64,000 bases of DNA from Polystyrenella longa (GCF_007750395.1 NZ_CP036281.1:1823001-1887000); one strand, 5' to 3'. Positions 44,717 through 57,654 are shown, numbered from the stretch's first letter. Notes: generated from the sequence alone by a model not told the origin. Numbers and translations are program-made.

Positions 44717-47700
44717 TTAAAAATCAATCCAAGTACCAATGAAGTTGACCGTGTAATCCAATGGGTCATCGAATTGTGAATAAATATCGTCGTTTTCACT
44801 TTCTTCCGAGTATAGATTGACTGTCGTCGTACTACTGGCGTCTAGGTAGGCACGGTAGCCTGCAATTGAATTGTAGTAAAACTCAACCCGATCATCTCTT
44901 AGTTCGACAATGCAGGAAAGTCCGCCATCATAAATATTGAGGACATCGTCGCCAGTGTCGCTACTGAAATTTGTTAGATCGATATTCTTCGTATTCCAGG
45001 CGTAGGCAGTGCGTCCCCCGGCGGAGATGGAGGCGTAGGTCGGAGTAATATTGATCGTCTCGTCAGAGAAATCGTCCTGAGAAAGATATACAGAGGCGTC
45101 GCCCACTACATAAGCGTCCACTCGCTCGAATCGACGCACACGCGACCAGAAATCATTATCCAGGTTTCGGTAGGTCGTACTGAAGTCCCCCATGCTAAAG
45201 TCGTCCTCCGAGTTCAGCCCATATAAATACGCGCGGTCATAGCCTCCGTTGATACTGTTTACGTAAACATCTTTAAAGTTATTCAAAACAGTCGTTACGC
45301 CGTTCCCAGTCATGGTTGTCGTCGTCTGACGGAGTTCGAGAACGTCATCTGCCGAACTGTCGTCGAGATCTGCATCGTCTTCACCTCCCGCTGCTGAGTT
45401 GACGATGTAAATGTCAAAACTATAAGCATAGTTATTAAAGCCAGTTCCACTGAAATTCCCCTGGGACTGGTCTCCCTCATATGTATCGTCGCCGCTCGAA
45501 TCATAGAACCGGGCCCGATCAATGCCTCCATTGTTGGAATGGGCATTAACGCGATCAAATCCGTATGCATAGGTGTCGAAGGTGGGACCGAGCAGGGCAG
45601 CGTAGTCTGGTCGCAGGTACATATTGTCGTTACCAGGGGTATCGTAAATCGTCGCCACGTCATTTCCTCCTGACCCAGAGAGGGCATCGACGCGATCAAA
45701 TCCATGAGCGGCGGTATCAAATCCCGCTCCAGTAAGTCTGCTCGTAGAGGAAGTTGAATTATAGACGTCATCCCCCGAGGTGCCGTTCAGGTAAGCACGA
45801 TCCCCCGTTCCTCCATTAGTAGCGAAACCGTCGACGTCATTAAAACCAAATGCATAAATACTGTAATTGCTATTCCGCATGATGGCCTTATTCGAGTAGG
45901 CGGTGAACGTATCGTCGTCCTCAGAATCATATAAGTTGGCCTGGTCTGTCCCGCCCCCCGAGGCCCAGGCGTTGTAGTTGGTGAATCCTTCGGCGTAGTT
46001 GGCGAATCCAGTACCGATCATGCTGGCTTCTTCAGGAGAGGCAGTATAAGTTTCATCTCCTGAGGAGTCGTAAAAGTAAGCAGTATCAGTTCCACCATTC
46101 TCCGAGATGAAATCGACTCGTTCAAAATCGCGAACCACATTTGTGCTTTCGCTGTTTCTTATGAAGGCCAGATTAGAATACGCTCGGGCTTCATCGTTTA
46201 ATGCAGAGTCGGTGAAAGTAGCATCATCTGTGCCTCCCAGGTTGGCATACGCATCGACACGTTTAAATCCGGAAGCGATATTCTTATACCCTGTCCCAGT
46301 CATCGTAACCCCGTCCGAGTCTATCGTCAGCGAGTCATCACCGTTGGAATCAACCATCCAGACGCGATCATTTTCTTCAAGGAGGGTTTCCGCCGTTACC
46401 TGATCGAATCCGTATACATAACTCTGATGGCTGCCATCGTGCAGATAGCTGGACTCAGGAGAGAATCGGATATAGTCGATTCTCCCTTGCGAATCATGGA
46501 GCCATGCCTGATCGGTACCGCCACTACCTCGCATATCAGCGACAACCATTTCAAATCCGTCTGTATCAACCAGACGTGTAGTGGGTAGCGATGTCGAAGA
46601 AAGAGACGCCTCGGTTCGGCCAGTGTTCACGTTTTCGTCTGCATCTGTCCCGGAAAAATCGGCTCGGTCGATACCGCCGTTACCTGTGCTTACATTGACC
46701 GTGTCGAAACCATCGACGAGATTGTAAAACCCTGTGCCTGTCAAAATTACCTGGTTAATGTTCGCATAAAGACGATCGTTACCTGCGGAGTCATCCAGCG
46801 TAGCGGTATCACTTCCGCTGTTACTTCCGTATACATCCACGCGGTCAAAACTGTTTGCTGTATTGTCGAAAGTCGTGCCGGTCATCTGAGTTGTAGAATC
46901 CGTCATCGTCAACGTGTCGTCACCAGCGGAATCGTAGAACCAGGCCCGGTCACTGCCTCCTGCTGTCGAGTTGGCGACAACTTCATCAAAGCCGGAGACA
47001 GTATTACGATATGTCGCATCGTTCATCCGGGAGTATGTTGGCCTCGCCAAAAATGTTTCATCGGCGCTGGTGTCGGTAAACGTCGCGGAATCAGTACCGG
47101 AATTACTGGAAGCGATGGTTACGTAATTTACGTTATTTACTGTGTTGCTGTAGCCAGTTCCCGAAAGGACGACCTCCCCTTTGACTAACGTTGCCGTGTC
47201 ATCGCCAACCGAATCGTACAGTCGGGCTTCGTCGTTCGTGTCTCCATTCAGGATGATTGTTGCCAGCGAGTCACAGTCAAAAAAGACTTGGTCATTCACT
47301 GTGGCCTGCAGTCGGCCAGCCCACAATTTGAAAGAATCGACGCTGATCTCCGATGTATAGGAAAGGGAGTCAGTTCCCCCATTGCCCGAAAGACTGATCG
47401 AGTCAATCTCGCTGAGAGAAATCGGTGTCGTTGTACTTCCGCCATCATCCGAAATCGTCACCGTCGTTCCATCAATGGTAATTTGGAATTGATCATCCGC
47501 TGATGTTCCGGATAGCTGTAAATGCCTGTCGGAAACGCTGTGAAAGCTGTCCGTTTGAGTAGTAGGAGACGTGTCCAAGCTGCCCGAAACCGTTCCCGAA
47601 AGGAGCAATCGAGGTTCGCAGGTTTCGATGAGTGCGATTGATGGAAGTGGACGATGCTGGGCAGTGCGTGATCGACGCGAAAGTACTTTGAGTTGATCAC

Positions 47701-47755
47701 GATAAAATGTGCGGATTGGACGGAATAGTTTGGTCAATCGGAGAGGCATCTTCAT
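44717..47755 (-). CDS. Large repeat protein with LEPR-XLL-like N-terminus
   Basis: 1012 residues, function unknown. A basic N-terminus is followed by CEPRLLLSG (46-54), like the LEPR-XLL domain of planctomycete surface proteins; there is no classical hydrophobic signal peptide. From about residue 150 to the end run 17 degenerate repeats of about 47 residues. A typical unit begins AxxYDSxGDDTxT, then has a G-T-G-[FY]-x-N block, a G-F-D-x-V block and ends near GGTD. Each unit matches the same-numbered unit of the protease encoded upstream. The Asp-rich starts suggest Ca2+ binding and a beta-rich extended fold (inference). It carries no recognised enzyme domain. Confidence 0.85.
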   Translation of the reverse strand: MKMPLRLTKLFRPIRTFYRDQLKVLSRRSRTAQHRPLPSIALIETCEPRLLLSGTVSGSLDTSPTTQTDSFHSVSDRHLQLSGTSADDQFQITIDGTTVTISDDGGSTTTPISLSEIDSISLSGNGGTDSLSYTSEISVDSFKLWAGRLQATVNDQVFFDCDSLATIILNGDTNDEARLYDSVGDDTATLVKGEVVLSGTGYSNTVNNVNYVTIASSNSGTDSATFTDTSADETFLARPTYSRMNDATYRNTVSGFDEVVANSTAGGSDRAWFYDSAGDDTLTMTDSTTQMTGTTFDNTANSFDRVDVYGSNSGSDTATLDDSAGNDRLYANINQVILTGTGFYNLVDGFDTVNVSTGNGGIDRADFSGTDADENVNTGRTEASLSSTSLPTTRLVDTDGFEMVVADMRGSGGTDQAWLHDSQGRIDYIRFSPESSYLHDGSHQSYVYGFDQVTAETLLEENDRVWMVDSNGDDSLTIDSDGVTMTGTGYKNIASGFKRVDAYANLGGTDDATFTDSALNDEARAYSNLAFIRNSESTNVVRDFERVDFISENGGTDTAYFYDSSGDETYTASPEEASMIGTGFANYAEGFTNYNAWASGGGTDQANLYDSEDDDTFTAYSNKAIMRNSNYSIYAFGFNDVDGFATNGGTGDRAYLNGTSGDDVYNSTSSTSRLTGAGFDTAAHGFDRVDALSGSGGNDVATIYDTPGNDNMYLRPDYAALLGPTFDTYAYGFDRVNAHSNNGGIDRARFYDSSGDDTYEGDQSQGNFSGTGFNNYAYSFDIYIVNSAAGGEDDADLDDSSADDVLELRQTTTTMTGNGVTTVLNNFKDVYVNSINGGYDRAYLYGLNSEDDFSMGDFSTTYRNLDNDFWSRVRRFERVDAYVVGDASVYLSQDDFSDETINITPTYASISAGGRTAYAWNTKNIDLTNFSSDTGDDVLNIYDGGLSCIVELRDDRVEFYYNSIAGYRAYLDASSTTTVNLYSEESENDDIYSQFDDPLDYTVNFIGTWIDF

Positions 47756-48104
47756 CTCTTCTATGCGTATTGGTTAAGGTACCTGCTTAAACGCAACGGG
47801 AGCGGGGGGAACAGCGAGGCACTCTAACTATGCCCGATGACGTATTTGTCTGTCGGGAAAGTAAGTAGCAGTCAGGTCGAAATCTCGGAAAGCTGAAGTA
47901 CAAACCGTGTGACTGGATCGAGTCCTAAAGTTTCACTCCTCATGCCAAGAGGAGCAAAGAATTAACTAGGAGCGATGCACTCTTCAGTACTTATTGATCC
48001 TGTCATAAAAAAAGAGATTAAGACGGAGAGTCTTAACCTCTTGAGTAATCACGTATTGTCAGGCTTAAATAAACGCCCCTCTTGCGGCAATGGCAAATAA
48101 AGGA
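47756..48104. other. Gap between the two repeat-protein genes
   Basis: About 350 bp. It contains the terminator of the protease gene (48007-48042) and then about 250 bp that should hold the promoter of the downstream repeat gene. I see no clear -35/-10 pair. Confidence 0.4.
48007..48042 (-). terminator. Rho-independent terminator of the protease gene
   Basis: Read on the minus strand, AAGAGGTTAAGAC pairs with GTCTTAATCTCTT (one G-T wobble) around a 5-nt loop and is followed by a T-run (A-run at 48007-48013). It lies about 60 bp after the stop of the protease gene, so the two repeat genes appear to be separate transcripts. Confidence 0.88.
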
Positions 48105-51100
48105 CTAAGTGAAGTCGTCATACTCGACCCAACCGCCGAAATAATTGACGGTATAGCTGAGAGTAGGAGTATTCTGATTCGCTGTATCAACTCCGGAATT
48201 ACTGGCATACAGGTTGACTGTATCTATATTTGAGCCAGTAATTCGTTTCCATTTCGGCTGGGAATTTTCGTAGACCATGTAAACAATAGTGTTATCGAGT
48301 TCAGCACGGTCTTGTAAATTCGTGTCGTAAATGTTGAAGACGTCATTTCCGCCATTGGTCACGTTGATGGTGACATTCGTGGAACTCCAGATTGTTAATA
48401 TGTTCGTCCCATTGTCTTTAATGACCCGGTCTGAATAGAGAGTGAAGGTCTCCGTTGCGGAGGTGTCGTTCAAGCTAAAGCCGGCCAGACCGATGTCCAG
48501 AGCATCAATCGTTTCGAAGCCAGAAGCAGTCGCAGCGAATGTGGATGTCGAGAAGTTGATGTTCGAGTCACCCCAACTGACGCTGTCATCAGCCGTATCT
48601 GAACCTGTAATCGTAGCCGAGTCCGTTCCCCCATTCGTGGCAGTGACATTAACGGTTTCGAAATTGTTCACCTGGGTGGTGATGCCATTCCCGGAGAAAG
48701 TGGTTTGAGAGATTCCCACTGTGACCGTGTCATCGCCGGTGCTGTCATCAAGGTTCGCTGTGTCGTCACCGCCAGAATCGCCGTTCACGATGTAAATGTC
48801 GAAACCATAGGAATAGTTTGCAAACCCGGTTCCGATCATATTAGCTTCGGTCTGGTCGCTCGTGTAGGTGTCGTCTCCGGCCGAATCATAGTAGCGAGCC
48901 CGGTCGGTTCCACCATTGTCCGCGTAGGCGTTCACACGATCAAATCCATACGCATACGAAGAGAAACCGGTCGCCAGCAGGGCAGAGTAATCATCCCGCA
49001 GGTACATGTTGTCATTGCCGTCGGTGTCGTAAATATTCGCCGTGTCTGTACCGCCTGATTCGGCGATGCCATCCACTCGATCGAACCCATGAGCCGCCAT
49101 GTCAAAGCCGGTTCCCGTCAAACTGGTGGTCGCTAATGTAGAAGTGTAAGTATCGTCTCCACTTGAATCATAGAGATAAGCCCGGTCTCCAGTTCCACCG
49201 GCGGTGGCATACCCGTCGGTGTTTTCAAATCCGAAAGTATAAATCTTGTAGCCCGTTCCCGTCATGATGGTTTTGTCAGTATACGCCGAGTAGGTGTCGT
49301 TACCTGCGGAGTCGTAGTGATTGGCTTGGTCTGTCCCTCCGTAAACAGCGTAGCCAATGTACCAGTCAAAACCTGTTCCGGAGTTGTTGTAGCCAGTTCC
49401 CAGCATGCTGGCAGCAGTTGGAGACGCAGTGAACGTATCCGCTTCGGTGGAGTCATAGAAGTAAGCTTTATCGAACCCGCCGTTACTCGACTGGAATATA
49501 ACCTCTTCATAGTCGCGAATGTAATTAACGTACCCACTACCGATCATGTAGGCACGAGTAGGATAGGCACGAGCTTGGTCATCTCCCGAGGAGTCGTTGA
49601 ACGTTGCCGTATCTGTTCCTCCTTGATTCGAATATGTATCGATTCGATAGAAACCGGTCGCCGAGTTGCTGAATCCGGTACCCGTCATCGTCGCACTGTT
49701 GGGGGAGAGAGTTAAGGTGTCATCACCGGAGGAATCGATCATGTAGACCTGGTCGTTTCCACCATTGGAGGAGTTTCCGGAGACTGAATCAAATCCGTAG
49801 GCGTAATTCTCATAACCACTTCCATACATAAAACTCACATCGGAGTAGGTCTTGAAGTAGTCTTTGGTCGCGATGTCATTAAAAGTGGCGTCGTCCGTTC
49901 CACTTCCGTAGGTCATGTTTGCGGCGACTAGATCAAAACCATTTAAGTTGATGGTCACTCCATTACCCGTCAATGTGGCGGCCTGCCCGGTGGCGGTAAA
50001 GCTTTCGTCCGCATCGGTGCCGTAGAAGTCAGCTCGGTCAGTTCCACCCGTTGTGGCATTGACGGTGACCGTGTCAAAGTTGTTGACCCGGTTGTAGTAA
50101 CCTGTTCCAGACATGTACGAATAGGTGATGTCCCCATAGTAGCGGTCATTTCCGGACGTATCGGTGAAGGTCGCCGTGTCCGTTCCACCATTATCACCAT
50201 AAGCGTCGACGCGGTAGAAGTTATTGGCCGTATTATTGAAGTTGGTACCGGTCATGTTCACGGTGGAGCCGGCCATCGTCAGCGTGTCATTTCCTGTCGA
50301 GTCATAGAACCAGGCTCGGTCGCTTCCCCCATTAGATGAAGTTGCGATGCCACTTTCAAAGTTGACCGCTGTATTGCGATAATCGCCCGTCGTCATGTAG
50401 GCCTGGTTGTACTTGCTGACGAAATAATCACCTGCCACAGTGTCAGTGAAGGTCACGCTGTCGGTACCACCATTATTCGAGTAAGCAGTGACCGTATTAA
50501 TTCCGTTAATCGTATTGGAGTATCCCGTTCCGGTCATCTGCACCGCGTTGGCCGTCATCGCTAACGTGTCATTTCCAACAGTATCGTACATCAACGCTGT
50601 GTCAGCACCGCCGCCCCCATTGAGGATGATTGATTCCAGAGTGTCGCTATCGAAAACAAGATCGGTCAACGTGTGCTGTAACCGGTTTTGCCACATTTTG
50701 AATGAATCGACGACAGAACGACCGGTGTAAGTCAAGCTGTCCGTGCCGGCATCTCCCGACAGATTGATTTCTGTTACTGCGGTTGTGTCGATTGTTGTGG
50801 AGACATCGTTCCGAGTGACATTCATATCAGTTCCTGAAAAGGAAATGACGAAGGTGTCGTCTCCTGCAGTGCCTGTGATTTCTGCGATGCCGTCAGTGAT
50901 AGTCAGGAAATCGACCGGGGCCGCCTGAGGTGTGATCAATTCCTGGATCGCCGCATACAAATCGAGCCGTTTGAAATTGAGATTGGTGTTGGTCACGTTG
51001 TCGTCTTCATCGTCACCATCATTAATATCGACGCCCGTATCCTGCATCAACTGCAGCAGGCTTGTCTGGTTAGCAAGATTAGACTTACCATTGTCCTGAG

Positions 51101-52256
51101 CCGCTTCATGGAGCAGGGCGGCTGCACCAGCGATAACGGGAGTCGCCATCGATGTTCCTCCCATTGAAACGAATCCTCCTCCCAGACCTGCTGCTGTAAT
51201 CAACGCTCCTGGAGCAAGAATGTCCATGCTACTGTTTCGCTGAGTGAAACTGGTGATTCGGTCCGCCCCCGTTGTAATGTCGCGAGCTCCACTACCCCAG
51301 GTAATCCCTCCGTAGCTTCCATCCCAAACGGCTCCCACAGAAACGGTCTGATCGCTGATCGCTGGATATCCCAAACCTTGCGCACTGCTGAGACTATAGA
51401 AATCGTTTCCAGTGGCAGCCGCAATAAATACGCCCTGACCAATGAGGGTGCTCAACTCGTCTTCCATAAATGTGTAGGGGTTTGTTGAGTAGTTCCCGGC
51501 CCCCAGAGACATGTTGACGGCAACAATGTTATACGTTTCCTGATTGTCAGCGACCCATTGCAGGGCTTCCTCAACATCTCCAAATGATCCGGAGCCATTG
51601 GCGTCGAGCACTTTGAGGGCAATGATATTGACGTCGTTGGCGATTCCACCATTTGTTTCGTCATAGCCACCAATGATGCCGGCAACATGAGTGCCGTGCC
51701 CCTGATCATCCATGGGGTCGCTGTCATTGTTGACGAAGTCATAGCCCGCGATAACTCGGTTACCCCATCCACCGCCGAGGGCGGCATGGGTGTAATCTAC
51801 TCCGGTATCCAGAACGGCCACGGAATATCCCGTACCACGATAAGAAGTGTTCGCGTAAACATCATCCAGATTGATCAGGTTGTGCATCGCTTCGTCTTGA
51901 ATTGAGATGTCACTCCCCGATTCAAACGTGATTTCGTCCAAGGCATAGCTGTCGATGGTGAACTTTTCGTTCTTCCAGGATTCATAAGCCGCATCGACCT
52001 GCATTGTTGCCAAAGGCATTTCTGAGGACATGTTGACCCGCAAGTCGAGTGGAGTCGCTGGAGCATCATCATTCAACCAGGCAGCTCCACCGGTCGGCGA
52101 GGCGGAGAGCATCACTCTGGGTTCGGCGACTTCAATGTGCTGATACGCGCCCGTGCCGGCGGATGAGTGCAAGTGGCTGCGACAGGAACGGCCGGTTCTC
52201 CCGTTCAATGAGGAGTTCAACAATTGGCGAAAAAAAGTTCGACATCGCTGGAACAT
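48105..52256 (-). CDS. Subtilisin-like (S8) protease with a 17-unit repeat array
   Basis: About 1383 residues. Near the N-terminus EVAEPRVMLSASP (43-54) resembles the LEPR-XLL motif, without a classical signal peptide. The S8 domain (about 125-450) has the full triad: Asp150 in VAVLDTGVDYTH, His187 in GHGTHVAGI, Ser369 in GGTSMATPVIAG, and the oxyanion Asn284 in AATGND. After a linker with a dockerin-like Asp-rich stretch (DINDGDDEDDNVTN, about 440), residues about 490-1383 hold 17 repeats of about 47 residues like those of the next gene. The start at ATG 52256 has AGGTG 8 nt upstream. It is probably exported and surface-bound; the target is unknown. Confidence 0.92.
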   Translation of the reverse strand: MFQRCRTFFRQLLNSSLNGRTGRSCRSHLHSSAGTGAYQHIEVAEPRVMLSASPTGGAAWLNDDAPATPLDLRVNMSSEMPLATMQVDAAYESWKNEKFTIDSYALDEITFESGSDISIQDEAMHNLINLDDVYANTSYRGTGYSVAVLDTGVDYTHAALGGGWGNRVIAGYDFVNNDSDPMDDQGHGTHVAGIIGGYDETNGGIANDVNIIALKVLDANGSGSFGDVEEALQWVADNQETYNIVAVNMSLGAGNYSTNPYTFMEDELSTLIGQGVFIAAATGNDFYSLSSAQGLGYPAISDQTVSVGAVWDGSYGGITWGSGARDITTGADRITSFTQRNSSMDILAPGALITAAGLGGGFVSMGGTSMATPVIAGAAALLHEAAQDNGKSNLANQTSLLQLMQDTGVDINDGDDEDDNVTNTNLNFKRLDLYAAIQELITPQAAPVDFLTITDGIAEITGTAGDDTFVISFSGTDMNVTRNDVSTTIDTTAVTEINLSGDAGTDSLTYTGRSVVDSFKMWQNRLQHTLTDLVFDSDTLESIILNGGGGADTALMYDTVGNDTLAMTANAVQMTGTGYSNTINGINTVTAYSNNGGTDSVTFTDTVAGDYFVSKYNQAYMTTGDYRNTAVNFESGIATSSNGGSDRAWFYDSTGNDTLTMAGSTVNMTGTNFNNTANNFYRVDAYGDNGGTDTATFTDTSGNDRYYGDITYSYMSGTGYYNRVNNFDTVTVNATTGGTDRADFYGTDADESFTATGQAATLTGNGVTINLNGFDLVAANMTYGSGTDDATFNDIATKDYFKTYSDVSFMYGSGYENYAYGFDSVSGNSSNGGNDQVYMIDSSGDDTLTLSPNSATMTGTGFSNSATGFYRIDTYSNQGGTDTATFNDSSGDDQARAYPTRAYMIGSGYVNYIRDYEEVIFQSSNGGFDKAYFYDSTEADTFTASPTAASMLGTGYNNSGTGFDWYIGYAVYGGTDQANHYDSAGNDTYSAYTDKTIMTGTGYKIYTFGFENTDGYATAGGTGDRAYLYDSSGDDTYTSTLATTSLTGTGFDMAAHGFDRVDGIAESGGTDTANIYDTDGNDNMYLRDDYSALLATGFSSYAYGFDRVNAYADNGGTDRARYYDSAGDDTYTSDQTEANMIGTGFANYSYGFDIYIVNGDSGGDDTANLDDSTGDDTVTVGISQTTFSGNGITTQVNNFETVNVTATNGGTDSATITGSDTADDSVSWGDSNINFSTSTFAATASGFETIDALDIGLAGFSLNDTSATETFTLYSDRVIKDNGTNILTIWSSTNVTINVTNGGNDVFNIYDTNLQDRAELDNTIVYMVYENSQPKWKRITGSNIDTVNLYASNSGVDTANQNTPTLSYTVNYFGGWVEYDDFT

Positions 52257-53700: not shown

Positions 53701-55740
53701 TTACTTCTGGAACTTCATTACGACGACGGTCATATCGTCGTAAGGCACCGGTTGGTCGGAATATTCCAGTGCGGTTGAGATGATCAGTTCTACCAGTTCT
53801 TCGCTGGTTTTATCCTGATGTTCATTCAGGATACTGAAGACATGATCGTTTCCAAACATCACGCCTTCCTCGTTCTTAACTTCCAGAATTCCATCCGTCA
53901 GTTCCACGAGAATGGAGCCCGGTTTGAAAGGGATCTGTTCAACCGCACATTCCAGTCCATCTTCCATTACTCCCAGAGGCGGTCCAGTCGGCCCGATGAT
54001 TGTCGTCGTTTTATCCGAATTCAGAACGAGCGACTGGTGGCCGGCAGCGCAATAGTCCAGCGTTTGCGATTCCAGGTTGAAACGGGCCAGGAACATCGTC
54101 ACAAACCGATGCGTGTGAGAATCGTTCGTCAGGTATTCGTTCAGTTCCCGCATCGCATCGCTGAGGTCATCATGAATCGTGGAGAGCGCTCTTAAGTAAG
54201 CTCGAGTTTGCGCCATAAATAACGATGCCCCAAAGTCATGTCCGCTAACATCGCCAATGACAATTCCCAGTCGATTCTTACCAAGTTGAAGGTAATCGAA
54301 ATAGTCACCGCCGACCGTGTCCGAAGACTGGGACCGACCAGCCAGATCGATTCCTTTCATTTTCGGTGCGGATTGAGGCAGTAGGTTCTGTTGAACAGAA
54401 CGAGCAATGAGCAGTTTCTGCTGCGTCTCCTGATAGGTTGCTTCCTGTTCATGAACGCGATTGTAGTCCAGTATCAGTCCGATAAATGGAACCAGATATG
54501 CCAGGAGGCGCAGAGAGTGCGCCGCGAAGAAATCAGGATCAAAAACCTGTGACGACCAGAAAACAGCATGTATCTGTGTCGCAAGATGGGGAACTACGCT
54601 CAAAAAGATACCGTAGGAAAAAAGAGACGGATACTTGCGATAAAACCGTGGGAAGACGACTGTGCCTGCGAGGAGTAGCAATGCCAGCGGAAGGATGTCC
54701 CAGGGGCGTTTGGCTAGACGTCCATCCAGATAGATGGCCTGTGGCAGCTCGGGCAAGACGGAGCAGATGTGGACGATGGCATAGGCAATCATAGCGAAAA
54801 TGAACGCGACTACGGCGAGGAACCGGATTTCACTCCGATGGGAACTTTGTTTGAGTTTATTTCGCTTCAATAAAATCAGACTGGTGCCGAGGATCAGGAT
54901 CGAGACATTGAATGTCCTCGAAATGGCCCACGTGATTGGAATGAAACGAACCGTATCTTCGACCGAGTTAATCAGATGATCGGCCGAAAGAAGATTAAAT
55001 GCATCGATCAATCCGGAGAAGAATAGGGCAGTTCCCACGATTGGCGTAGAGACATCCCCCACTGTGTAGTAGTGGATGATTGACAGGAACCCGGTGATGA
55101 GAGCGATACAGACGGCGGTCCATTCAATGATCGTGTACCAGAACTGCTTTCGAACGACAGATTCCATATGGAAATCGATATCGTGGTAAAACCGGATGGA
55201 GGCGGGAATGTCTGGTTTTACTTGCTGCAGCAGAATCGGTTCTCCACCTTCCAGATTCCAGGCGGAAACTGACCCAGTATTAGAAACCGCCAGCAACGTT
55301 TTCGTTTCCGTATGAACGGCAACGGAAACAATCGGATGAAAGATGGAATTAATCTCAACAGCGAGCTTTTCATTATCCAGGTTCCAGACCTGAATCGTCC
55401 CGTTGGCTTTACCGCAGATCAGAAATTCTTTGTCCGGGAGAATGAGCAGCGAAGTGATAACTGAGTGCGCGTTATCTTCATGAATATGAGTGTTCAGCAG
55501 AGCAACCGGAGTGTTATCGCTCAGGTCTCTGATTTCGATTTGGTCTACTTCCCAGGGCGTGGCTTGCAGATCGCCACGGGTCGCTTGAACCAGGGCTGGT
55601 TCAGGCTGAGTTGCCGATATCCATTGAATTATCAGGAAGGGAACAAAACATAGGACAATGATTGCTCCACTGATAAGTTTGGGAAGTTCAGCAGGTTCGT
55701 TGTTCATGAAGGCAACAAATAGAAGGAGCAAAGCAGGCAT
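53701..55740 (-). CDS. Membrane SpoIIE/PP2C-type phosphatase with WD40-like and 7TM-like sensor parts
   Basis: A 679-residue signalling protein. After a membrane helix (about 22-40) comes a short WD40-like stretch (about 85-180: FLICGKANGTIQVWNLDNEKL, LLAVSNTGSVSAWNLEGG). Residues about 205-430 have seven or so membrane segments; FFSGLIDAFNLL and the following region resemble MASE3-type sensor domains (moderate confidence). A coiled linker EATYQETQQKLLIARSVQQNLLPQ leads to the phosphatase domain with SSDTVGGDYFDYL, GDVSGHDFGASLFM, LTDGILE and PYDDMTVVVMK, the metal-binding Asp residues of the PP2C fold. It lies downstream of a Ser/Thr kinase gene on the same strand, 168 bp away. Confidence 0.88.
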   Translation of the reverse strand: MPALLLLFVAFMNNEPAELPKLISGAIIVLCFVPFLIIQWISATQPEPALVQATRGDLQATPWEVDQIEIRDLSDNTPVALLNTHIHEDNAHSVITSLLILPDKEFLICGKANGTIQVWNLDNEKLAVEINSIFHPIVSVAVHTETKTLLAVSNTGSVSAWNLEGGEPILLQQVKPDIPASIRFYHDIDFHMESVVRKQFWYTIIEWTAVCIALITGFLSIIHYYTVGDVSTPIVGTALFFSGLIDAFNLLSADHLINSVEDTVRFIPITWAISRTFNVSILILGTSLILLKRNKLKQSSHRSEIRFLAVVAFIFAMIAYAIVHICSVLPELPQAIYLDGRLAKRPWDILPLALLLLAGTVVFPRFYRKYPSLFSYGIFLSVVPHLATQIHAVFWSSQVFDPDFFAAHSLRLLAYLVPFIGLILDYNRVHEQEATYQETQQKLLIARSVQQNLLPQSAPKMKGIDLAGRSQSSDTVGGDYFDYLQLGKNRLGIVIGDVSGHDFGASLFMAQTRAYLRALSTIHDDLSDAMRELNEYLTNDSHTHRFVTMFLARFNLESQTLDYCAAGHQSLVLNSDKTTTIIGPTGPPLGVMEDGLECAVEQIPFKPGSILVELTDGILEVKNEEGVMFGNDHVFSILNEHQDKTSEELVELIISTALEYSDQPVPYDDMTVVVMKFQK

Positions 55741-55908
55741 CCTGTCGACAGAAATATCGTCAGGGAATAACTATCCTACCGAGACAACAGAGTAGCAGAA
55801 AGGGGAGGGTCTCTATTTTCTGAGTAAATAAAACAGCAGTGAGCAGAAGTGCGGTTGATCAAGCTTCTCTCGTCTGATTCAGTCACTGCAAAATCAGTAC
55901 TTCCGGCG

Positions 55909-57654
55909 TTAATTGTTTCCCGGATTCTCCTCAGCAGAGTTCTCTTCTGCCTCTTTTTTCAGGTTATCCAAGGGTGAATAGTCCCAGGGAGCAATTTCTG
56001 CCCCCTCTTTTCGTTTCATAATGTAGTTCATCTGGGCGGCGTACTCTTTATTCTCTGAATACAGCTCCAGCAGGCTGTTCCATTTTTGTTTTGCCTTGAA
56101 TGTTTCCCCACGAGCAAGAAGTTGGTCCGCCTCACGCATGTTTTGCAGAATCAAAATCTGAGGATCCGAGATGAACGTCCCATCGGCAATCTGCTGTTGA
56201 ATCTCGTCGATCTTTAGTCGAGTTAACTTCAGATAAATCTGATAAGACCGGCTGTTGAATTTTTCTTCCTTCACATCCTGATTGATTTCGAACAAATTGC
56301 GCAGGCTCTGGTATTTTTCAAGTGCGGTTGCCCGGTCTCCATATAGCTCAAAACGGAGTGCTTCCACAAAACGGGTCCTTGCTTCGTTTCCAGCCAACTG
56401 AACCGGCAATCCGGTCCGTGCTGCTTTGGTTGACTCCTGAAGGGCTTTGTCCATGTCGAGTTGGTCAACTTTTTTCTGTGCAATCTCAGCCAGATTATGA
56501 TCCGGATAACTTTCGATCAATTTTTGCAGTTGTTCGCGACCATAGAACAACCCCCCTTCGTCCTCTTGCGCAAGGTAAGCATTTGCTTTCTCGTACATCG
56601 TTTCAGCGCTGTCCGGAAGCAATAACCAGATCGTAACTCCGATCACCATCACCAGGCAGAGCACCAGGAACCAGGTCTGCTCATGGAAGGGTTGATCCTT
56701 TTTGCGTTTTCGTTGTTTCTTCTTTTTTTGCAGTATCTTTTTAAGTTCCGGATCGACTGAATCCATGGAGACAGTCGTTCCGCCTGTTCCGGCTCCCCTC
56801 GCAGCTTGCGTCGACACACTCATCTGGGTCGCTTCTTTATTGCGAACTTCTTCCAGAGCCAGACGTGTTGCCTGAGCATCGAAGGGGCGGTCCCCTGGGT
56901 CTTTGGCAAGTAATCGTTGTATCAGGTTTTCCAGCCAGATCGGGCACTGCATATTCTTGCCACGCACCTTCGGCGGATCCTCATCCAGGTGCATCATCAA
57001 CATCGCTGCAGCGGTGTCCGCCTGAAAAGGAGTGTGGCCCGTCAGCATCTCGAACAGCACGCACCCCAGAGAATAGAGGTCCGTCTTGCGCGAGACAGGG
57101 GGTTTACCAATAATCTGTTCCGGTGCCATATAGGCATAGGTTCCTACCGTGCGGCCTGCTGCGGTTAAGGCCGTTGCGGTGGTGTCGCGCGCAATTCCGA
57201 AGTCTCCCAACTTCAGTTCGCCCGTCTTTGTACTGAGAAACAGGTTGGCTGGTTTCAGGTCACGATGGATGATCCCCATCGCATGCGCTTTTTCGAGACC
57301 GCTACAGATTTGAATTCCACAATCGACGACGAATTCCCAGTCGAGCGGCGCGCGTTCTTTGATGACCTCTTCAAGCGTCCCCCCATCAACTAGCTCCATC
57401 GCATAGAAATGCTGACCACGTTGTTTACCTCCACCGAAGTATTGGACGACGTGCGGATCCTTGAGCTTTTTGAGGATGTCCATCTCTCGCTCGAAGCGTT
57501 TCAGGACCTGCGGTTGGTCCGACATGGCGGGAGAAAGCACTTTAACGGCGACTTTACGACCAGTTTTCTCGTAAGTGGCGAGATAGACGATGCCCATTCC
57601 CCCGACGCCCAGCTTGCGTTCGAGGATGAAGGGGCCTATTTTGCGTTTCGCCAT
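55909..57654 (-). CDS. Serine/threonine protein kinase with membrane anchor and helical periplasmic part
   Basis: A 581-residue Hanks-type kinase. Seen are the G-loop [13 protein letters not shown] (14-26), Lys38 in [14 protein letters not shown] (130-137), DFGIA (151-155) and APEQ (177-180), so the kinase looks active. A basic juxtamembrane run [10 protein letters not shown] precedes one membrane helix ([18 protein letters not shown], about 330-348). The C-terminal 220 residues are helical and TPR-like, lying outside the cytoplasm, and could sense or bind a partner. The phosphatase encoded just downstream may counteract it (inference). Confidence 0.95.

Follow-up and report, generated by a model that had tools for sequence, protein, structure and literature searches.

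Two adjacent genes on the reverse strand of Polystyrenella longa encode large proteins, P1 and P2, that share a long array of the same degenerate repeat, and a peptidase domain is present in P2 and missing from P1. Does this locus encode a protease together with a non-catalytic partner, as a first-pass annotation had suggested, or does the array have a history and use of its own? The features mapped in the window, i.e., the whole 64,000-nucleotide stretch of DNA that was analysed, are listed in Table 1 together with a distant third copy, P3. The contrast between the two proteins noted in that annotation was confirmed: P2 matches Peptidase_S8 (PF00082) with an E value of 7e-38 (131 bits against a cut-off of 21.8), and a Pfam profile search found no domain in P1. 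The catalytic residues of P2 (Asp181, His218, and Ser400) and its Asn315 all fall inside canonical S8 motifs, and the PDB entries nearest to the domain are AK.1 protease and other subtilisins. The start of P2 was set at an ATG, residue 32 of a longer GTG-started open reading frame, chosen to match the start of the congener orthologue. Both proteins carry an EPRxxLS motif near the N-terminus and are probably secreted. Elsewhere in the window (53701-57654, reverse strand), a gene for a WD40-like and SpoIIE phosphatase protein adjoins a Ser/Thr protein kinase gene.

Table 1. Coordinates of the P1 and P2 features (positions in the window) and of the remote copy P3
Feature	Position	Strand	Description
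P1 gene	44717..47755	-	1012 aa, secreted-type, without catalytic domain; EPRLLLS signal motif, 19-unit array, C-terminal tail
P1 C-terminal tail	44720..44764	-	DYTVNFIGTW, a variant of the array-protein tail motif
P1 array	44765..47533	-	Residues 75-997; 19 full units of ~47 aa plus stub
EPRLLLS motif, P1 N-terminus	47594..47626	-	LEPR-XLL-like; NCBIfam NF012209 12.9 bits, below the 17-bit cut-off
Terminator-like hairpin	48012..48042	-	13-bp stem then T-run; just past P2, ahead of P1; consensus match only
P2 gene	48105..52256	-	S8 protease with array; 1383 aa from ATG; ORF open from 52349
P2 C-terminal tail	48108..48176	-	SYTVNYFGGW motif
P2 array	48177..50897	-	Residues 485-1391; 19 full units plus stub; predicted flipped two-sheet beta-roll
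Peptidase_S8 domain, P2	51072..51836	-	Residues 172-426; catalytic Asp181, His218, Ser400 and oxyanion Asn315
EPRVMLS motif, P2 N-terminus	52101..52133	-	LEPR-XLL-like; NF012209 14.5 bits, below the 17-bit cut-off
P3	L004:10299-13226		975 aa; third array-only copy, same register, 3.5 Mb from P1/P2

Every protein was cut into units separately with a wrap-around profile, P1 and P2 never being aligned to each other. By this procedure P1, P2, P3, and the congener protein Q2 each yielded 19 full units of 47 residues together with a stub and a C-terminal tail. The first-pass annotation had counted 17 units of about 47 residues; the length holds, and the lower count arose because units 1 and 2 are divergent N-terminal pieces. 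Its 17 units are thus units 3-19, its units 12 and 14 are units 14 and 16, and what it read as the end of unit 17 is the C-terminal tail past unit 19. Its central observation, that unit n of P1 resembles unit n of P2, was borne out. Unit identity was 0.475 on-register versus 0.276 off-register, and the diagonal score of 2166 far exceeded the 973 +/- 101 obtained with permuted units (maximum 1500 in 20,000 permutations), no cyclic shift of one array against the other scoring above 1073. Best hits fell on the diagonal for 15 of the 19 units and reciprocal best hits for 13 of them; in the tree of P1 and P2 units, 13 cherries joined units of the same number and one joined units of different number, so that units paired by number and did not cluster by protein. 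Same-numbered units also have 32% of their non-consensus residues in common, against 9% for other units. Since common descent without unit turnover already explains this sharing, the earlier proposal that each unit has its own job is weak; the difference among units that the data do establish is the placement of odd and even ones on opposite faces (see below).

The array had also been said to have been copied as a finished whole, and the array-only P3, overlooked at the time, extends this claim. For P1/P2, P1/P3, and P2/P3 alike, the match between same-numbered units is far above that of permuted ones, and therefore a single complete array was duplicated on at least two occasions, giving rise to P1 and P3. 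The duplicated-array observation is thus right and more extensive than first stated; it also shows that a matching register in two neighboring proteins can come from plain duplication of a frozen array. The P3 gene (L004:10299-15273 region) is immediately followed by TadE- and TadG-like genes, with two sulfatase genes nearby on the other strand. P1 is open over 1012 codons with no stop or frameshift at 48% identity, P3 likewise keeps a full open frame, and dN is 0.50 between P1 and P2 with saturated synonymous sites and third positions, P1 and P3 both showing dN of about 0.5 with saturated dS. The conserved frames and saturated third positions show that the array is held under protein-level constraint. 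In the best tree, P1 joins outside the P2/Q2/R2 group, and the duplication probably took place before the congeners diverged; an AU test did not, however, reject a position for P1 next to P2 alone (p 0.125).

The array was earlier taken for a structured solenoid, and such a fold is what AF2 predicts. Mean pLDDT was 83.5 for the whole P2 array, and six units modeled with 39 array slices reached a pLDDT of 96.8 and a pTM of 0.92, with five strands per unit at columns 5-9, 16-19, 23-28, 31-36, and 40-44 (b1-b5). The nearest PDB folds are RTX beta-rolls (CyaA 6sus, Z 7.5, rmsd 5.2 over 191 residues; 7rah, Z 7.4), with RsaA and serralysins also among the best structural matches, all at TM <0.35 and Z <8; at these scores the predicted array resembles an RTX roll and may or may not be one. 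A shallow covariation set of 616 two-unit windows from 80 proteins pointed to parallel b1-b5 pairing within the unit (5-40, 7-42, and 9-44; offset 35), to a b3-b4 hairpin, and, across units, to contacts of b5 with b4 (39) and of b2 with b1 (36) of the next unit. This pattern indicates a roll with an extra hairpin. Columns 5, 7, 9, and 40 are occupied by large residues (Arg, Tyr, and Trp) in the odd units of the window genus and columns 18, 20, 23, 25, 34, and 36 by small ones, and even units show the reverse at the same columns (parity p 0.0003-0.035). Covariation and this odd/even swap jointly assign b1 and b5 of a given unit to the sheet that holds b2-b4 of the adjoining units. The roll is accordingly predicted as two sheets with a true repeat of 94 residues, each unit sending b1 and b5 to one sheet and b2, b3, and b4 to the other, and its three crossings would make consecutive units swap faces.

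If units flip in this manner, the bulk of outward side chains is expected to correlate within one sheet. In the window genus, the correlations had the predicted signs at lags 0-3, with an alternation of -0.78. In other planctomycetes, the alternation was -0.39 versus -0.11 for shuffled arrays (0/5000), with a same-sheet excess of z = 7.0. The partition of b1,b5 from b2,b3,b4 ranked first of 16 (0.139; next 0.061) in 44 proteins from outside the genus, whose sequences were also used in the covariation, the partition itself having been derived from the window genus. Non-flipping roll models found no support in these 44 proteins. On this statistical evidence, odd and even units lie on opposite faces.

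The two faces also differ chemically. In P2, P3, and Q2, aromatic residues make up about one third of face A (Tyr ~30%) and Arg/Lys about 20%, and face B is 68-81% Ser/Thr/Asn/Gly/Ala; the faces of P1 are similar and weaker (52%), and the Tyr/Arg-rich face is present in all four genus proteins. A Tyr/Arg ladder would thus run along one side of the roll and a Thr/Ser/Asn surface along the other. Conservation does not clearly favor the Tyr/Arg face over the opposite one, the difference between A and B being significant for P1-Q2 only. Since just 12 of the 58 arrays tested singly showed significant asymmetry, 4 of the 12 coming from the window genus, the idea of a binding face may be genus-specific. 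The arrays are Asp-rich, with a net charge of about -90 to -106 and almost no Cys, and the Asp turns of the unit (GxD at columns 2-4 and 13-15) suggest the use of calcium or another cation.

Giant extracellular proteins without annotation abound in planctomycete genomes, and profile searches for the array were run over three genome samples. The array was present in 8 of 170 genomes of the family, in 7 of 392 phylum-wide genomes (at a strict threshold), and in 69 of 396 class-wide genomes, the latter representing 45 of 185 genera. The window genome has three copies and four others (G538, G570, G644, and G745) have one each. Genome G045 has about eight, a clear expansion (G045:C1; L070, L071, L076, L077, and L202), among them an open frame of 6789 aa and a C25 peptidase. 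Among 76 array proteins examined outside the genus, picked by array score irrespective of protease content and including some near-duplicates and one congener protein (L072, from G001), S8 motifs occurred in 52 and HExxH in 5, and spot Pfam checks returned S8, M12/reprolysin, M10/matrixin, M8, and C25 peptidases. The congener protein (L072:4609-6900, forward strand) is an array-only protein of 764 aa with 11 units and strong face asymmetry; it is the orthologue of neither P1 nor P3, and array-only proteins are hence not confined to these two.

Outside the genus, arrays contain 5-15 units (median 9), the 19 units found here being the longest seen. Between lineages, positional correspondence holds for the N-terminal units only (best offset 0 in most cases, with weak p values), and conservation of unit numbers across families was rejected beyond them. 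Four species of genus g47 have a common register of their own, inner unit identity being kept within and not between lineages; arrays thus change in length from one lineage to another and stay fixed inside each. At their very C-terminus, array proteins frequently carry hDYhFxxhGxW regardless of catalytic domain (P1, P2, and, e.g., L123, L065, and L118), several shorter S8-array proteins having a looser LFxxhG tail instead. This motif is possibly a C-cap or a sorting signal. In the four genomes scanned with a strict DY...GxW pattern at most 5 residues from the stop, it was found in array proteins only, so it looks like part of the module, and its use as a general sorting tag was rejected.

No Pfam or NCBIfam family covers the 47-residue repeat, no solved protein matched it by sequence, and we did not find it described in the open-access literature. 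The earlier statement that no such system is described is therefore fair for the repeat; it does not extend to the fusion of subtilase and array, which is common in planctomycetes. As far as these genomes indicate, the array is a lineage-wide, unnamed extracellular module of planctomycetes that usually forms the C-terminal half of proteases. It is an even call whether the repeat constitutes a new solenoid class, i.e., a two-sheet beta-roll whose odd number of crossings alternates the units and yields two chemically different ladder-like surfaces, used as a widespread targeting tail of secreted proteases and, in the window genus, also in stand-alone surface proteins.

The explanation that we favor, with somewhat more confidence than doubt, is that P2 is a secreted subtilase with a binding beta-roll tail and that P1 and P3 are its tail-only paralogues. 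P2 would be a subtilisin-type protease whose C-terminal two thirds form one long roll of 47-residue units, probably cation-stabilized at GGxD and DSxGDD turns. The roll would offer an extended binding surface, its Tyr/Arg face tethering the protease to the cell surface or to an extracellular polymer. P1 and P3, in which the same finished array directly follows the secretion motif and the protease domain is absent, would bind the same kind of target without cutting it, as dispensable surface or matrix proteins and not as obligate subunits.

The alternative raised by the first-pass annotation makes P1 a dedicated non-catalytic partner that would attach to P2 by way of the matching arrays and act on it as a regulator, guide, or inhibitor; the adjacency of the two genes on the same strand, their common register, and the constraint on P1 would all agree with such a role. 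This reading is not borne out at the loci of relatives, of which a contig scan gave two congeners only, both metagenome-assembled genomes (G001, JAGQQC, 78% complete; G002, PABD01, 65% complete). In G002, the genes flanking P1/P2 (amidohydrolase, MFS transporter, and others) are kept, yet only 17 bp separate the end of the subtilase-array gene, which encodes Q2 (73% identical to P2), from the MFS gene, and P1 is absent from the syntenic place between them. The G001 locus is split over two contigs, and an array tail fragment adjoins the same MFS gene; orthology of this fragment to P1 was rejected (AU p 0.003), as it groups with P2/Q2. Compared with P2, the G001 copy is 71% identical in its N-terminal part and 45% in the tail fragment, a greater tail divergence that may reflect a second subtilase-type copy at the locus. 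In neither congener, therefore, were the two genes found together. Moreover, a terminator-like hairpin separates P2 from P1, P3 is not linked to any protease, and single array genes are the rule at other planctomycete loci, where no P1-like neighboring partner was seen. Two array ORFs were present at L178 and L177, those of L177 being cut by the ends of the stretch; at L178 (genome G602), two giant array proteins without S8 motifs stand side by side, another tandem arrangement. Because of the congener loci and the hairpin, the P1-P2 pair is neither conserved nor clearly co-transcribed, and a partner system, which we now consider improbable, is not supported.

Loss in the congener also bears on two other accounts. 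P1 could be a recent non-functional duplicate on its way out, given its absence from the syntenic place in G002 and the decay there of the related P3, of which a remnant alone persists beside the TadE/TadG genes (L075:8550-8760, reverse strand), comprising part of one unit (57% identity) and, in a different frame, the final 18 residues. An intact P1 frame at 48% identity with saturated third positions, and a duplication that probably predates the congener split (with the reservation on placement given above), make this highly improbable. Rather less remote, although still unlikely, is that the array is a folding, stability, or secretion module that folds outside the cell on calcium like an RTX beta-roll and has no specific ligand, P1 and P3 being left-overs minus the enzyme. 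Its nearest structural matches, acidic Cys-poor composition, GxD turns, and the P3 remnant in G002 are all in keeping with this possibility. However, P1 and P3 keep full open frames at dN of about 0.5 and saturated dS, all four genus proteins have a face that is specifically rich in Tyr/Arg, and the N-terminal signal motifs do not indicate type I secretion. We thus retain a subtilase with a binding tail, accompanied by tail-only paralogues, as the best account of the locus, tethering through the Tyr/Arg face being an inferred part of it.

The main interest of the locus lies in an unnamed, widespread, protease-associated repeat with an unusual predicted architecture. A planctomycete extracellular repeat module now has a defined unit, end pieces, a distribution, a testable fold, and a tie to secreted proteases, and an odd number of crossings per unit would offer a repeat a simple route to a two-faced surface. 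Among known systems, the Thr-rich flat beta face recalls that of ice-binding solenoids, a kinship to which we give a very slim chance. The P2 domain is that of a canonical subtilase with all catalytic residues, and its long C-terminal array was found in no named S8 subfamily, the NCBIfam equivalogs mycosin and PatA scoring far below their cut-offs. The E-P-R-x-x-L-S motif found near the N-terminus of large planctomycete repeat proteins (LEPR-XLL/Planc_extracel; NF012209, PF07595) also occurs in P1 and P2, below the NF012209 cut-off that the homologue L121 passes at 19.1 bits; the window repeat differs in belonging to no listed family. RTX proteins are defined by tandem nonapeptides XUXGGXGXD (PMC6891781); no such tandem was found here, GGxGxD occurring zero times in P1, once in P2, and twice in P3, and neither P1 nor P2 had a Pfam RTX match at E values up to 1. 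The predicted array is like the RTX beta-roll (CyaA 6sus/7rah, RsaA, and serralysin) in its Gly/Asp-rich turns and its spacing of about 19 residues per two strands, and in serralysins as in P2 the roll is the C-terminal part of an extracellular protease. It departs from the RTX roll in its 47-residue unit, the predicted five strands and hairpin of that unit, the predicted flip between successive units, and the N-terminal signal motif of the proteins that carry it.
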